A stretch of 64,000 nucleotides of DNA from Methanopyrus sp. SNP6 (GCF_002201895.1 NZ_CP019436.1:62001-126000); one strand, 5' to 3'; positions 19,299 to 27,003 are shown, counted from the first letter of the stretch. The notes: generated by a model not told the origin, from the letters alone. A program made the numbers and translations.

Positions 19299-19828
19299 TC
19301 ACCCTTGCCCCATGACTTCAACAGCTTCACGGCTCTCACCGGGTCTCCGTCCGCCTCCTCCAACGCACGTCTCGCCTCTTCTTCCGATACTCCGGCAGCC
19401 TCCGCCACAGCCTCGACGGTCTTGTCATCCGGCTCGGATTCCTTGGTCTCCCGTAGGATTTCCTCCAGATCCTTCTTTCCAAGGAGGTACTCCGACAGCT
19501 TCTTCTTCCACCACATGTACTCCTCAGGACTCATTCCGATGCGCTGCAGCGTCGAGTCCCGCAACGGACACGGCTTGGTGATCTTGCAACACCATACTAA
19601 ACCACCGAAGCACGTGTTCTTCCCAGAACCCAGCGGGGTCTTCTTCGCGAATTCCTTTTTCCTCCGTACGTATTCCTCTGGATCTAGGTCCGCCTCGTCT
19701 AACGCGTGAAAGATCGGACAAGGTTTTACGGGTGGGCAGCAGAAGGCGAGCGCTTCCGGGGGTCCTCCACGACACACGTGCGACGGGGCGTCTGGCCAAC
19801 CTTCCTTAACAGCGTTCATACCTATCAC
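19295..19828 (-). CDS. Methanogenesis marker protein 9-type Cys-rich protein with UBA-like tail
   Basis: 177 aa. The N-terminal ~95 residues are rich in Cys in two similar blocks: [20 protein letters not shown] and [16 protein letters not shown], each followed by a D/S-PEEY helix. This C-x-GG..CC..CP pattern is that of methanogenesis marker 9, found only in methanogens. The cysteines could hold an Fe-S cluster. The last ~45 residues ([25 protein letters not shown] and beyond) are a UBA/NAC-type three-helix domain. It sits between A2 and a phosphoesterase with 4-nt overlaps on both sides, so it probably works with A2 on methyl-CoM reductase. Family name given from memory of the motif. Confidence 0.7.
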
Positions 19829-21423
19829 TCCTGTCGAATCATTTCCTCCCGCTCTTCGGGTGTCAGTTCGCGGATGATCTCCTCTGGATCTCCGGTTTTA
19901 ACGAATTTTCCATCCCGCATCAGTGAAGCACGGTCGCAAACCATGAGAACGAAGTCCATGTCGTGCGAGACTATCACGAACGTCTGGTTCATCTCCTTCC
20001 TGGCGTTCAAAATCGATTTCGCGACCTTGCGCATAGTGATCGGGTCCATGGTACCCGTCGGCTCGTCGAGGATTAGTATACGTGGTTCCCTGATGAGTAC
20101 CTGAGCTAGTGCCACTCGGTGCCTCTCGCCTTCTGAGAGCTGATCCGGGTACTTGTCCAAGATGTTACCAGCCTTCTTCTCGTCGAACCCGACCGCCTTC
20201 AGGACGTGAACGGCCTTCATCCTGGCGAGCTCGTCCGGCAGCTCGATACCGATGGCCTTAGTAAGGTTCTCCAGCACGGTGCGGTGTGGATAGAGCGTAT
20301 ACTGCTGGTGCAGCATCCCGATGTACCGTTTCGCTCGACCCCGTTCACGACGGTCGGTCATGTCAACCCAGTCGTCACCCACCCGCACGTACACCTCGCC
20401 GTCGGTCGGCTCCAGCACACCCGCGAGGATCTTCGCCAGCGTGGTCTTGCCTGCTCCGCTCCTTCCGACGATCCCGTAGATCTCGGCCTCCTTCACGTCC
20501 AGTGAGACTCCGTCCACGGCCTTCACGACACCACGCTCGATCGAGTAGTAGTACTTCTTGGCGTCCCTAACTCGGATGATGTCCTCTCCGACCTCCACCT
20601 CTTCCCGCTCAACCTCTTCCACGAGCTCCAGGTACTTGCTGACGACCTCGGAGGGTTTACCCACCTCCTTCACACACCCGTCCTCCAGCCACACGACCTT
20701 ATCGGAGATGTCTTCGATAACCTCGGGCCAGTGGGACGTGATCACCATGGTGATGCCCTCTTCCTTCACACCTTCACGGAGAGCCTTGTGCACGATGTCC
20801 GCGGTCTCCGGGTCTAAGGTACCGGTAGGTTCATCAGCCAGGAACACGATCGGCTTCTTTGCCAACTGCCGAATCAACACCACACGCTGCTTCTCGCCAC
20901 CGCTCAAATCTCGCGCTAGGTGCGTGATGCGGTGCTCGAGTTGTACCATCTCGATGAGATCCACCGCACGCTGTACGGCTTCCTCTCCCGAGTAGCCCGA
21001 CTCTTCGAGCGCCTCCATGACGTTCTCGAGGACAGTTTGCTCCTCGTACAGGGCGAAGGTTCGCTGGAACATGATGGCGATTCTTTTACGGAATCTACGG
21101 CGCTCCGTGTCCGAGAGTCCCCACAGGTCGACAACTTCCTCCTCCAGTTCTCCCTTCTCACACTTAGGACATGGCTCACCGATGAACTCCGGACGCTCTA
21201 CCCAGCCGCATTCTGGGCACATTCCCACCCTGTAGAGAATGCTTCCTTCGTCGGGCTCGTAGTCGTCCAATCCCTTCAGCGCGTGGATGAAGACGGACTT
21301 ACCTGCGCCGCTTTCTCCGAGGACTCCGAGGACTTCGCCTTCCTCGATCTCGAGCTCCGGGATCTCTAAGCGGAAATCCTCGAGCTCCTTGACTAAGTCC
21401 TCCACGTGGATTACCCACGACAC
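19825..21423 (-). CDS. atwA: Methyl-coenzyme M reductase system component A2 (double ABC ATPase)
   Basis: 532 aa with two ABC ATPase domains. The first has Walker A GESGAGKS, a signature LSGGEKQR and Walker B FLADEPTG; the second [16 protein letters not shown] and LILDEPTG. Between Walker A and the signature of domain 1 is a zinc-ribbon insert (CPECGW and CPKC), the hallmark of A2. A2 hydrolyses ATP during reductive activation of methyl-CoM reductase. No membrane partner is encoded nearby, as expected for a soluble ATPase. GTG at 21423 is chosen since GATGGGGGGAA precedes it; an ATG-type start at 21459 would add 12 residues. First gene of the operon with marker 9 and a phosphoesterase. Confidence 0.9.
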
Positions 21424-21498
21424 CGTTGGTTCCCCCCATCTCGTCGCCGGAAGAGACACTTCAACATCTTATTAGGTTGTCCGAACGGGGTGAGGTCC

Positions 21499-22194
21499 TT
21501 GAAACCCGTCCGGGTGTGCCCGGAGTGCGGCAAGTACACGGAAAGATACACGTGCGAGCGGTGTGGTCGGCGCACCGAGGAGTTTTTGGACGGGCGGCGA
21601 AGGCTCGCGCTCAGCAAACTCCTCTCGGGTATCCTCCGGCACTTTCCTGAGGAGGTGAAGGTGAAACTCGACGAGGAGGGTTTCACGGACTGCGACGTAC
21701 ACGAGCTGGCGGAGCGGATCAAGAAGTACTGGAAGAACCGCGAGTACTATCGCTGGCTCACTGGAGAGCACATCATCGCGGTCGTGGAGACCTGCCCCAA
21801 GGGCCGGTTCGAGATCGACGAACATGGCCGTATTCGGGCTAGGTACGGTCACTCGAAGCGTCTCAACGTCAGGCCGACGCTCCCCGAAGCCGAGAACGTT
21901 AAGGGACTGTACCACGGCACGGCGCGTGAGAACCTAGAGTCCATACTTCAGCACGGGATCAAGCCGATGGGTAGACGTGCGGTGCACTTGACGGACGACG
22001 AGCGTGAGGCCCTGATCACGGCGCTCCGTCACACCCGAAACCCGGTGATACTCGTCATTGACACGGAGCGACTAAGACGGCATGGGTTGGTTCCCAGGAA
22101 AGCTGGTAAGAGCGTCTACGTGGTGGAAGGCACGATACCTCCGGACTGCATCACTCGCGTGATCCGGAACCCCAAGGAGGTCCGCCGAGAGTGA
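21499..22194 (+). CDS. kptA: RNA 2'-phosphotransferase Tpt1/KptA
   Basis: Transfers an internal RNA 2'-phosphate to NAD+, giving ADP-ribose 1'',2''-cyclic phosphate; in eukaryotes it finishes tRNA splicing. 231 aa. An N-terminal zinc ribbon (CPECGKY and CERCG) precedes the catalytic part, which keeps the family core: [13 protein letters not shown], later [35 protein letters not shown], and [17 protein letters not shown] 21499 lies 5 nt after GGGGTGAGG. The end overlaps the endonuclease V start (GTGA). Archaea do not need Tpt1 for their usual tRNA splicing, so its job here is open. Confidence 0.9.
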
Positions 22195-22832
22195 AAAGCA
22201 CTGAATGGTTCGAGGCCGACACCGAGAAGGAGCGCGTAGAAATTCAGCGGAAAGTAGCCCGTGAAGTCCGACTGGAACCGCTCGACGACGTGGACGCCGT
22301 CGCCGGGGTGGACGTCTCTTACCGTGGTGAAGAGTACAAGGCCGCCGCGGTGGTTTTGGACCCCGAAACCTACGAAGTGGTTGACCGTCGGGTGGTCCAA
22401 GGGACTACGAGCGTCCCATACGAGCCCGGGTTCCTCGCGTTCCGCGAGGGTCCGCCCGCCCTGAAGGCCCTCGAAGGCCTGGACTTCGATCTGTTGTTCG
22501 TCCACGGTCACGGCATAGCCCATCCCAGGCGTGCCGGTCTCGCTTCCCACCTCGGGGTAGCCCTAAACGTCCCGACGATAGGGGTAGCGCGACGTCCGCT
22601 CGTGGGTAGGTCGAAGGAGGAACCAAGAAGGGTGGGAGATACCGCACCTCTCGTACATAGAAGGGAGGTAGTCGGCTACCTCGTACGAACCGACGCCGAA
22701 GCCCGACCCGTAGTAGTGAGCCCTGGTCATCGGTGTAACCTCGAGGACGCCGTGAGATGGACGTTACGCCTCACCCGAGTAGGAAAGTGGCCAGAGCCGC
22801 TGCGTCTGGCTGATCTGCTCTCACGTGCGTAG
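22191..22832 (+). CDS. nfi: Endonuclease V with a changed active-site residue
   Basis: Cleaves DNA (or RNA in some family members) one nucleotide 3' of inosine. 213 aa, an RNase H-like fold. Recognised by GVDVSYRG with the first catalytic Asp, [11 protein letters not shown] with the catalytic Glu, and [18 protein letters not shown] followed by VPTIGVA. In most bacterial enzymes the third block begins VDGHG, with Asp as a metal ligand; here it is VHGHG (about residue 106), so that ligand is His. The start overlaps the kptA stop, and topoisomerase V begins 29 nt downstream, so the three genes look like one operon. Confidence 0.88.
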
Positions 22833-22861
22833 AGGAGCATTACGGGTAGAGGGTGAAGGTC

Positions 22862-25816
22862 GTGGCTCTGGTGTACGACGCTGAGTTCGTGGGCTCGGAG
22901 CGAGAGTTCGAGGAAGAACGCGAGACGTTCCTCAAAGGTGTCAAGGCTTACGACGGCGTTCTGGCCACCCGTTACTTGATAGAGAGGTCTCCTAGCGCAA
23001 AGGACGACGAGGAGCTGTTAGAGCTTCACCAGAATTTCATCCTTCTCACGGGATCGTACGCCTGCTCGATAGATCCGACAGAAGATAGGTATCAAAACGT
23101 CATAGTTCGTGGTGTTAACTTCGATGAACGAGTTCAACGCCTGTCCACGGGCGGTTCACCGGCTCGCTACGCGATCGTGTACAGGCGTGGCTGGAAGGCG
23201 ATCGCCAAGGCCTTGAATATCGACGAGGAAGACGTTCCTGCCATAGAGGTGCGTGCTGTGAAACGCAACCCACTCCAGCCGGCATTGTACCGGATCCTGG
23301 TACGATACGGGCGCGTCGACCTAATGCCCATAACCGTGGACGAGGTGCCACCTGAGATGGCCGGCGAGTTCGAGCGACTGATCGAACGGTACGACGTCCC
23401 GATCAACGAGAAGGAGGAGCGCATACTCGAGATCCTCAGGGAGAACCCATGGACCCCACACGACGAAATCGCGAGACGGCTCGGGCTCTCGGTTTCGGAA
23501 GTCGAGGGTGAGAAGGATCCGGAGAGCAGCGGTATCTACAGCCTGTGGTCTCGAGTCGTCGTGAACATCGAGTACGACGAGCGTACGGCCGAGCGACACG
23601 TTAAGCGCCGGGATCGAATTCTCGAAGAACTATACGAGCGCCTGGAGGAGCTCTCGGAGAGGTACTTACGTCGTCCGTTGACTAGACGGTGGATCGTCGA
23701 ACATAAGCGCGACATCATGAGAAGGTACCTCGAGCAGCGGATCGTCGAGTGTGCGCTCAAGCTCCAGGACCGTTACGGGATCCGTGAGGATGCGGCACTG
23801 TGTCTCGCAAGGACTTTCGACGGGTCCATCTCAATGATCTCTACCACTCCGTACCGGACGCTCAAGGACGTGTGCCCCGACCTGACACTCGAGGAGGCCA
23901 AGTCCATCAACCGCACCCTGGCGACACTGATCGACGAGCACGGTCTCAGCCCCGACGCCGCGGACGAGCTCATCGAGAACTTCGAATCGATCGCCGGTAT
24001 TTTGGCTACCGACTTGAAGGAGATAGATCAAATGCACGAGGAAGGAAGGCTATCCGAGGAGGCTTACCGGGCCGCCGTCGAGATACAGCTGGCAGAGCTC
24101 ACGAAGAAGGGAGGTGTGGGTAGGAAGACTGCGGAGCGTCTCTTACGCGCCTTCGGAAACCCCGAACGCGTCAAGCAGCTGGCCCGCGAGTTCGAGATCG
24201 AGAAGCTAGCCTCGGTGGAAGGGGTCGGCGAGCGCGTCCTACGCAGTCTCGTCCCGGGGTACGCTTCGCTGATCTCAATCCGTGGCATCGACCGGGAGCG
24301 GGCGGAGCGTCTGCTCAAGAAGTACGGCGGCTACTCCAAGGTCCGTGAGGCCGGCGTCGAAGAGTTGCGCGAGGACGGCCTCACCGACGCCCAAATCCGG
24401 GAGCTCAAGGGTCTAAAGACCCTCGAGAGCGTAGTAGGGGATTTAGAAAAGGCCGACGAACTAAAGCGGAAGTACGGATCCGCGTCCGCGGTTCGAAGTC
24501 TACCCGTAGAGGAGCTGCGCGAACTCGGGTTCTCCGACGACGAAATCGCCGAGATTAAAGGAGTACCTAAGAAGCTCCGGGAGGCCTTCGACCTCGAGAC
24601 CGCCGCGGAACTCTACGAGCAGTACGGTTCGCTGAAGGAGATCGGTCGTCGATTATCTTACGACGATCTACTCGAGCTCGGTGCGACTCCGAAGGCCGCA
24701 GCTGAGATCAAGGGACCGGAGTTCAAGTTCCTCTTGAACATCGAAGGGGTCGGACCGGAACTCGCCGAGCGGATACTCGAGGCAGTGGATTACGACCTCG
24801 AGCGATTGGCTTCCATGAATCCAGAGGAACTCGAGGAGAAAGTGAAAGGACTGGGTGAAGAACTCGCGGAACGCGTCGTGTACGCCGCTAGGGAGCGCGT
24901 AGAAAGTCGCAGAAAGTCCGGCCGCCAGGAGCGATCGGAGGAAGAATGGAAGGAGTGGCTCGAGCGTAAGGTCGGTGAGGGGAGATCTCGCCGGCTGATC
25001 GAGTATTTCGGATCCGCGGGTGAGGTAGGAAAACTGGCCGAGAACGCCGAAGTATCGAAGCTGCTGGAGGTCCCTGGTATAGGCGACGAGGCCGTCGCCA
25101 GGCTCGTACCGGGTTATAAGACCCTACGAGACGCCGGTCTCACACCGGTTGAAGCGGAGCGCGTGCTGAAACGGTACGGGTCGGTCTCCAAAGTCCAAGA
25201 AGAAGCCACTCCGGACGAGTTACGCGAACTCGGCCTCAGCGACGCCAAGATCGCGAGGATCCTGGGCCTGCGTAGCCTGGTGAATAAGGGCCTGGACGTG
25301 GACACCGCGTACGAGCTCAAGCGTAGATACGGTTCCGTCTCCGCCGTACGGAAGGCACCGGTGAAAGCACTGCGCGAGCTCGGCCTCTCCGATCGTAAGA
25401 TCGCGCGTATCAAGAGTATCCCGGAAACTATGCTCCAGGTACGAGGGATGAGTGTGGAGAAAGCGGAGCGGCTACTGGAGCGTTTCGATACCTGGACTAA
25501 GGTGAAGGAAGCACCCGTATCGGAGTTGGTGAAAGTTCCGGGCGTCGGATTGAGTTTGGTCAAGGAGATCAAGGCTCAAGCGGACCCGGCCTGGAAGGCA
25601 CTCTTAGACGTCAAAGGGGTCAGTCCGGAGCTGGCCGACCGACTCGTCGAGGAATTCGGCAGCCCCTACCGGGTGCTGACGGCCAAAAAATCCGACCTGA
25701 TGAAGGTCGACGGAGTCGGGCCGAAGCTCGCCAAGCGAATCCGGACCGCGGGCAAACGATACGTGGAGGAGCGTAGGTCGAGGAGGGAGAGGATCAGGAG
25801 GAAGCTCCGAGGATGA
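22862..25816 (+). CDS. top5: DNA topoisomerase V with linked AP-lyase repair activity
   Basis: A type IC topoisomerase that relaxes DNA without Mg or ATP by a swivel mechanism, and also cuts abasic sites. Starting at GTG 22862 gives exactly the 984 residues of the published M. kandleri enzyme (N terminus ALVYDAEFV); GTG 22853 would add three. The catalytic domain (1-~270) keeps Tyr226 in GIYSLWS. From about 290 to the end there are tandem helix-hairpin-helix pairs, seen as repeated G-[VI]-G and GYASL/GYKTL motifs with RY/KYG spacing (for example KYGGYS, KYGSAS, QYGSLK, RYGSVS twice). These clamp DNA and hold the repair sites. A basic tail (RRSRRERIRRKLRG) ends the protein. The gene is known only from Methanopyrus. 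Several residues differ from AV19 as I remember it. Confidence 0.98.
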   Translation: MALVYDAEFVGSEREFEEERETFLKGVKAYDGVLATRYLIERSPSAKDDEELLELHQNFILLTGSYACSIDPTEDRYQNVIVRGVNFDERVQRLSTGGSPARYAIVYRRGWKAIAKALNIDEEDVPAIEVRAVKRNPLQPALYRILVRYGRVDLMPITVDEVPPEMAGEFERLIERYDVPINEKEERILEILRENPWTPHDEIARRLGLSVSEVEGEKDPESSGIYSLWSRVVVNIEYDERTAERHVKRRDRILEELYERLEELSERYLRRPLTRRWIVEHKRDIMRRYLEQRIVECALKLQDRYGIREDAALCLARTFDGSISMISTTPYRTLKDVCPDLTLEEAKSINRTLATLIDEHGLSPDAADELIENFESIAGILATDLKEIDQMHEEGRLSEEAYRAAVEIQLAELTKKGGVGRKTAERLLRAFGNPERVKQLAREFEIEKLASVEGVGERVLRSLVPGYASLISIRGIDRERAERLLKKYGGYSKVREAGVEELREDGLTDAQIRELKGLKTLESVVGDLEKADELKRKYGSASAVRSLPVEELRELGFSDDEIAEIKGVPKKLREAFDLETAAELYEQYGSLKEIGRRLSYDDLLELGATPKAAAEIKGPEFKFLLNIEGVGPELAERILEAVDYDLERLASMNPEELEEKVKGLGEELAERVVYAARERVESRRKSGRQERSEEEWKEWLERKVGEGRSRRLIEYFGSAGEVGKLAENAEVSKLLEVPGIGDEAVARLVPGYKTLRDAGLTPVEAERVLKRYGSVSKVQEEATPDELRELGLSDAKIARILGLRSLVNKGLDVDTAYELKRRYGSVSAVRKAPVKALRELGLSDRKIARIKSIPETMLQVRGMSVEKAERLLERFDTWTKVKEAPVSELVKVPGVGLSLVKEIKAQADPAWKALLDVKGVSPELADRLVEEFGSPYRVLTAKKSDLMKVDGVGPKLAKRIRTAGKRYVEERRSRRERIRRKLRG

Positions 25817-25818
25817 TC

Positions 25819-27003
25819 TCACGACCCGCGTGTTATGTCCTCCATAGCCGACAGGAACATCTCCGCTTCCTCGATGTCGTTGTAGAACGCCACCGAGGCC
25901 CGAACACAACCGTCGAGCCCGAGCTTCTCGAACACCAAGCTCGCACAGTGCCTCCCCGTTCGCACACAGATTTTCCGCTCACTGAGCTTTTTGCCTACCT
26001 CTGCGTGATCCACGCCGTCGACGAGGAACGGGACGATGGCCTTCCTCTCCGCCTCGGGTGCTAGAATCTCGACCCCCTTCGATCTCTTCTAATCCGTTGA
26101 GGATCCGATCGGTAACCTTGCGGATACTCCGCTCTACGCGGTCCAACCCGACTTCCTCCAGGATCTTGACGCCTTCCGCCAGTCCTATCACACCCGGGAG
26201 GTTCGGCGTTCCGGATTCGAAGGAGAGTGGAGGTTCTCTGGTGACGACCTCGAAATCTCTGGTTACGTAGTCCGTCGACCCTCCACCTAGAGCCGTAGCT
26301 CCAGCTCCTCCATCACGTCCTCTCGAACGTAAAGGATTCCAGTACCATGAGGTCCCAGGAGGCCCTTATGGCCGGGTGCCGCTATGAAGTGATACCTCGA
26401 CCAATCGTGATCCATGTGGCCCAACGACTGGGCCGCGTCGAGCAGCACGTACGCGCCGAACTCTTCGGCGAGCTCTAAGATCTCGTCCACGGGCTGCAAC
26501 GAACCCAGAGCGTTGCTCTCGTGAGTTATGGCGATCAGACGTGTGTCGTCGTCGACCACGGTCTCCAGCTCGGTCATGTCAATTTCACCGTTTTCCCGGT
26601 TGAACCCTACCACCTCGACTTCGAACCCGAACGTCTCGGAGAACTTCAGCCACGGCACCAGGTTCGAGTGGTGCTCGAGGGCCGTGGTAACGACGACATC
26701 GCCTTTCTCCCATCGGATCGAAGCTAGCACGTAATGGATCGAGTGGGTCGTATTCAGCGTGAAGGCGAGACACTCCGGCTCAACTCCGAGGAACGAGGCG
26801 ACGATATCCCTAGCGCGCTCGAACTCCTCGGTGGCACGCTCGCCCGGGGGATGCGCCCCGCGACCCACGTTCACGCCGAACTCCCGTAAGGCTCTTTCCA
26901 TGGCTCTTATAACACGTTCATGCTTCAGCGACGTGGCAGCGTTGTCGAGGTACACCCATTCCTCCTTGAGTGGAAACCCGTTCACGATTTCATCCAGACC
27001 CAA
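25819..27003 (-). pseudogene. Cysteine desulfurase (SufS/NifS class V aminotransferase), two frame breaks
   Basis: Read across both breaks, this is a ~395-residue PLP cysteine desulfurase that would supply sulfur for Fe-S clusters or thiolation. Part 1 (27003 to 26287) carries LDNAATSL, the PLP-site TALEHHSN, LLDAAQSLGH and the Schiff-base lysine in APGHKGLLGPHGTG. It stops at TAG 26287-26289, while the neighbouring frame continues as LGGGSTDYVTRD..., which needs one missing base near 26295. That frame returns to the first at a run of five G (plus-strand CCCCC, about 26072-26076), giving GVEILAPEAER. The last part has the active-site loop RTGRHCA with the catalytic Cys. The two shifts cancel. 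TTG start with GAGGGGG upstream. Decay and sequencing error are both possible. Confidence 0.75.

Follow-up and report, generated by a model that had tools for sequence, protein, structure and literature searches.

A remodelled endonuclease V in the kptA-nfi-topV gene row of Methanopyrus

The window analyzed here is a 64,000-nucleotide stretch of the Methanopyrus sp. SNP6 genome (NZ_CP019436.1:62001-126000), which consists of a single contig of 1.42 Mb. The window carries three neighboring genes on the plus strand: kptA, encoding the RNA 2'-phosphotransferase KptA (Tpt1); nfi, encoding endonuclease V (EndoV); and topV, encoding topoisomerase V. EndoV is generally treated as a universal inosine endonuclease. 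We found that the EndoV of every Methanopyrus genome, and that of several further lineages of archaea, is without one of the metal ligands of the catalytic site, and usually also without the lysine that holds the phosphate. This variant, recurrent in archaea, has the wider importance and is the part worth testing, while the kptA-nfi-topV arrangement itself is real and of an everyday kind for the SNP6 genome. The reading that we favor, and consider fairly probable, is an ordinary compact operon whose products act separately and whose EndoV has been remodelled, with reduced or changed activity.

The nfi gene (22191 to 22832, plus strand) runs from a GTG start at 22191 to a TAG stop at 22832, and its product matches PF04493 with a score of 213.6 bits (E=2.8e-63), which places it in the EndoV family. 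The predicted model (pLDDT 97) gave a Foldseek template modeling (TM) score of 0.92 to the Thermotoga enzyme (TmEndoV), and the superposed structures included PDB 6ozf, the title of which describes an engineered D110N TmEndoV crystallised with inosine DNA. The RNase H-like fold is shared with both Thermotoga TM1865 and E. coli Nfi (TM 0.86 to 0.93), and the equivalents of D43, E89, H116 and H214, the wedge PYEP and the GHG pocket are all kept in Methanopyrus. However, the Methanopyrus protein differs from these enzymes in that Asp110 is replaced by His or Asn and Lys139 by Arg or Ser (residues are numbered as in TmEndoV; H105 of the window is position 110).

The genus was sampled in five genomes, the source of the window (SNP6, G000) and its sisters G001 to G004. 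At position 110, G000 and G001 carry His, G002 to G004 carry Asn, and none of the five has Asp. Position 139 is Arg in G000 to G003 and Ser in G004, so that Lys139 is lost throughout. Among the first three residues of the DEDD tetrad, which make up the metal site (D43, E89 and D110), the first two are kept and the third is replaced. In Thermotoga EndoV, Asp110 and Asp43 coordinate the catalytic Mg2+, and Lys139 grips the phosphate at the cut site (PMC4650699). A preliminary description of this DNA had stated that EndoV starts the repair of deaminated adenine; since the catalytic Asp110 and Lys139 are missing, this cannot be assumed. We regard the protein as an EndoV-fold homologue, without presuming that it makes the canonical cut, at the second phosphodiester 3' to inosine.

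The ratio of nonsynonymous to synonymous substitution rates (dN/dS) of nfi was 0.13 to 0.22 in the genus, and the protein sequence evolves faster than that of topoisomerase V. Because nfi is under purifying selection, the gene has not decayed and its product is a remodelled enzyme, the activity of which is uncertain; a dead gene was ruled out by the dN/dS values together with the invariance of the other catalytic residues. A sequencing error at Asp110 was likewise rejected, as a non-acidic residue is found there in five genomes, two of them assembled as single contigs. No second, canonical EndoV was found in the five Methanopyrus genomes, each of which encodes one EndoV. The Methanopyrus EndoV is retained, though probably in a role other than that of a standard nuclease cutting at inosine with Mg2+.

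Alignment of 105 archaeal EndoVs showed no variation at D43, E89 and H116; the residue at position 110 is D in 51, E in 25, N in 23, H in 4 and G in 2. The loss of Asp110 is not unique to Methanopyrus, since other archaea repeatedly have Asn, His or Gly there, and roughly one in four of the sampled archaeal EndoVs (29/105) cannot safely be annotated as an active deoxyinosine nuclease. Of the 76 proteins in which position 110 is acidic, 74 have Lys139, versus 8 of the 29 in which it is not (Fisher p 1e-13, a value inflated by relatedness). On a tree that was built without both columns and has a weak backbone, seven of the eight inferred losses of the lysine fell on lineages without an acidic residue at 110 (p ~0.003). 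Methanopyrus lies inside a group of 12 EndoVs, none of which has Asp110 (support 83/78). Both Asp110 and Lys139 are kept in seven bacterial, one haloarchaeal and one viral EndoV. Selection on the altered enzyme was measured in Methanopyrus only. A distant archaeal family (G160 and G161) also has His at position 110, with Gly at 139. The fourth catalytic position, H214, varies as well among the 105 archaeal proteins (H 53, N 34, Y 9, S 8 and A 1).

The layout of the three genes is that expected of an operon, on the same strand and with almost no spacer, between a divergent gene upstream and a convergent gene downstream. No TATA-like box above background was found in the 120 nt upstream of topV in the five genomes, in a scan that is weak, kptA's own box being unremarkable in G002 and G003. 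The earlier proposal of one apparent operon thus finds support in strand, flanking genes, spacing and the lack of a TATA-like box before topV, and kptA, nfi and topV likely share a single transcript.

Comparison with the sister strains showed the same kptA-nfi-topV order in all five genomes. The spacing is a different matter. In the window the kptA stop ends at 22194, giving a 4-nt overlap with nfi (GTGA), and topV starts 29 nt past the nfi stop; the open reading frame coordinates confirm the preliminary description on both points. The overlap is 14 nt in G001 and larger in G004, so that kptA and nfi overlap in three of the five genomes, whereas they lie about 29 to 32 nt apart in G002 and G003. 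The nfi genes of G002 and G003 have no in-frame ATG, GTG or TTG at the homologous start, the first being an ATG about 14 codons inside, and because of this later start the 4-nt overlap is not general. The gap between nfi and topV is 29 nt in G000 and -23, 5, 5 and 2 nt in G001 to G004. The 4-nt overlap and the 29-nt gap are strain-specific.

Such packing is common in this DNA. Of the 54 co-directional neighbor pairs in the window, 32 are separated by no more than 30 nt and 15 overlap; since so many pairs are equally close, the tight packing of kptA, nfi and topV is no more than expected by chance. Wherever the comparison reaches, gene order is collinear with G001, G002 and G003; with G004 it is collinear as far as the end of topV. 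This makes the conserved order of the trio background and not a specific signal. In G004, the most distant relative, synteny breaks right after topV, and csd, a methyltransferase gene and leuC are absent from that position on the contig. Outside the genus, kptA and nfi were adjacent in none of the 86 archaeal genomes that have both genes (19 from one archaeal phylum and 67 from another), and the nearest pair on the same contig was 11.9 kb apart. We therefore found no linkage beyond the synteny background or in other lineages of the kind that a functional repair module would show.

The topV gene (22862 to 25816, plus strand) has a GTG start and encodes 984 amino acids, with a topoisomerase domain followed by tandem (HhH)2 repeats that carry the apurinic/apyrimidinic (AP) lyase sites; it matches the PDB topoisomerase V entries with E=0. 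The product is the same protein as M. kandleri AV19 topoisomerase V (type IC; PDB 5hm5 and 8df7-8dfb), which is 95% identical to the G001 copy. Using the residue lists of PMC9489208 for the two activities, we found that the topoisomerase active site (Y226, R131, R144, H200, E215 and K218) does not vary among the five genomes, even at identities as low as 75%. In AP-lyase site 1, the lysines of (HhH)2 repeat 6 (K566, K570 and K571) are invariant as well, and both sets are identical to those of the AV19 enzyme. At AP-lyase site 2, K809, K820 and K851 are kept and others are lost in G003 and G004; compared with AV19, the more distant genomes (75 to 81% identity) lose K831, K835 and K846. Because site 1 is invariant in the five genomes, it is under constraint within the genus. 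Relaxation and AP-lyase activity are predicted for the SNP6 topoisomerase V and have been demonstrated for the published M. kandleri enzyme.

Full-length relatives of topoisomerase V were confined to the five Methanopyrus genomes. None was found in viral contigs (two scans), phages, plasmids, species-level genome contigs or two other archaeal phyla, in agreement with the previous statement that the enzyme is unique to Methanopyrus. Outside the genus, matches were partial and limited to the HTH region (around residues 150 to 265) or to single HhH repeats. We know of no cellular partner of topoisomerase V; a genuine one would be valuable, and gene order alone does not supply it.

The kptA gene (21499 to 22194, plus strand) starts with TTG and encodes a PTS_2-RNA domain (PF01885, E=1.4e-33) preceded by an N-terminal zinc ribbon (CPECG...CERCG). 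The best solved match was 9ld4 (E=4e-38). The full domain is shared with Tpt1/KptA proteins of known structure (1wfx, 9ld4 and 8tfi), and the conserved Arg/His catalytic motifs, namely LRH, YHGTxR and the downstream Arg motif, align with those of 9ld4, which places the product among the KptA proteins. The Methanopyrus form differs by the added zinc ribbon, which one KptA subfamily model (PRK00819.1-5) covers too. The dN/dS of kptA in the genus was 0.07 to 0.19. An archaeal KptA has been demonstrated to take the 2'-phosphate off tRNA Up47, an RNA function (PMC9095486).

In the reading that we favor, a single promoter ahead of kptA would probably serve kptA, nfi and topV, and the translation of each gene would be helped by the preceding one. 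KptA would act on RNA 2'-phosphates, most likely that of tRNA Up47; the targets of topoisomerase V would be DNA supercoils and the abasic sites left by base loss or by glycosylases; and EndoV would act on nucleic acid containing inosine. With the fold and the motifs for substrate binding intact, two of three carboxylates present, and Asp110 and Lys139 exchanged, EndoV most likely binds inosine, and its cutting is most likely slow, dependent on another metal or almost absent. All five genomes encode EndoQ (E=4e-124 to PfuEndoQ), which could handle hypoxanthine in DNA, and all five likewise encode Endo_dU and an HhH-GPD protein; because these are present in every Methanopyrus genome, EndoV is not the sole possible route for deaminated bases. 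Several points count against the favored reading. The only RNA-seq of M. kandleri found (PMC3695527) covers RNAs shorter than 200 nt. In G004 the trio stays intact though synteny breaks just behind it, the one mild hint that linkage is selected. The backbone of the EndoV tree is weak, and ancestral states and the number of independent changes are uncertain. Finally, Glu110 is standard in an archaeal group resembling Thermococcales, whose Pfu and Tba EndoVs are active (PMC8438529), so that site 110 tolerates some change.

The preliminary description had gone further and put forward, as an inference, a joint repair unit for heat damage; in the form weighed here, EndoV opens sites of deaminated adenine, topoisomerase V removes abasic sites, Tpt1 aids with the ends, and co-expression keeps the three in step. 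The operon-like layout kept in five genomes, the invariance of AP-lyase site 1, by which the repair function of topoisomerase V is constrained, and the fact that all three proteins act on nucleic acid would fit such a unit. However, the conserved order is background, the pairing of kptA with nfi is absent from the 86 other genomes, and the known substrate of archaeal KptA is tRNA (PMC9095486). The chemistry does not join up either. The bond that EndoV cuts is the second phosphodiester 3' to inosine, and the nick has a 3'-OH and a 5'-P, with the lesion still in place (PMC4650699, PMC8438529). EndoV makes no abasic site (PMC4650699), and since an AP lyase requires one, topoisomerase V is not supplied with substrate by EndoV. 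At best, the two enzymes would act in parallel, and the cutting of AP sites by E. coli EndoV itself with Mn2+ (PMC4650699) is again parallel and not serial. The Methanopyrus EndoV also lacks Asp110 and Lys139. The joint repair unit is not supported, and we consider it unlikely.

Two other explanations were weighed. KptA and EndoV might form a pair that works on RNA, on the 2'-phosphate and on inosine in tRNA or mRNA, with topV merely downstream. The erasure of tRNA Up47 by KptA (PMC9095486), the ability of Pfu EndoV to cleave inosine in DNA and single-stranded RNA alike (PMC4693234) and the kptA/nfi overlap in three genomes are consistent with this; but the two genes are unlinked in the 86 genomes outside Methanopyrus, no function of inosine in RNA is known in Methanopyrus, and the packing argument fits most neighbors in the window equally well, which leaves the RNA pair improbable. 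Alternatively, the Methanopyrus EndoV, like several archaeal EndoVs without Asp110 and Lys139, could be an inosine reader that is catalytically silent or cuts differently, and that hands deaminated sites in DNA to topoisomerase V, translated next to it, for strand cutting and rejoining and for repair through the AP lyase. The natural Asn or His at position 110 equals or resembles the engineered D110N that was used to hold substrate, Lys139 is lost as well, nfi is under purifying selection, and nfi is tightly coupled to topV in all five genomes. Yet an interaction between EndoV and topoisomerase V is conjectural, archaea lacking topoisomerase V also have similar EndoVs without Asp110, and topoisomerase V has DNA-wrapping repeats of its own and works in vitro without a loader (PMC9489208). 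Such a handover is very improbable in our judgment, and we infer separate roles for the three products of the probable operon.

The coordinates given in the preliminary description (22191 to 25816) cover nfi and topV and omit kptA, which it had included in the operon by name; its three gene identities agree with the PTS_2-RNA, Endonuclease_5 and topoisomerase V domain matches. The 29-nt spacer between nfi and topV (22833 to 22861, plus strand) contains a ribosome-binding motif. In the junction sequences of the five genomes, this motif is GAGGGTGA in four and GGGAGGTGTGA in the remaining one; it stands directly before the topV start in all five and adjoins or spans the nfi stop in the most compact genomes. 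An alternative GTG for topV at 22853 is likewise open, but in the alignment the first residue of the solved M. kandleri protein falls on the GTG at 22862.

The downstream boundary of the unit is a convergent gene on the minus strand for a SufS-type cysteine desulfurase (25819 to 27003, family match). Its frame is broken in SNP6, with the N-terminal 238 amino acids, the middle and the C-terminal parts in separate frames, and is a single open frame in G001; the break is either a pseudogene or an assembly error. The upstream boundary is the divergent gene for methyl-coenzyme M reductase component A2 (19825 to 21459, minus strand; TIGR03269, E=3e-287). Between this gene and kptA, at about 21460 to 21485, a short sequence of the type TTAGG...CCGAAC recurs, slightly changed, in all five genomes and is possibly a shared promoter or regulator site.

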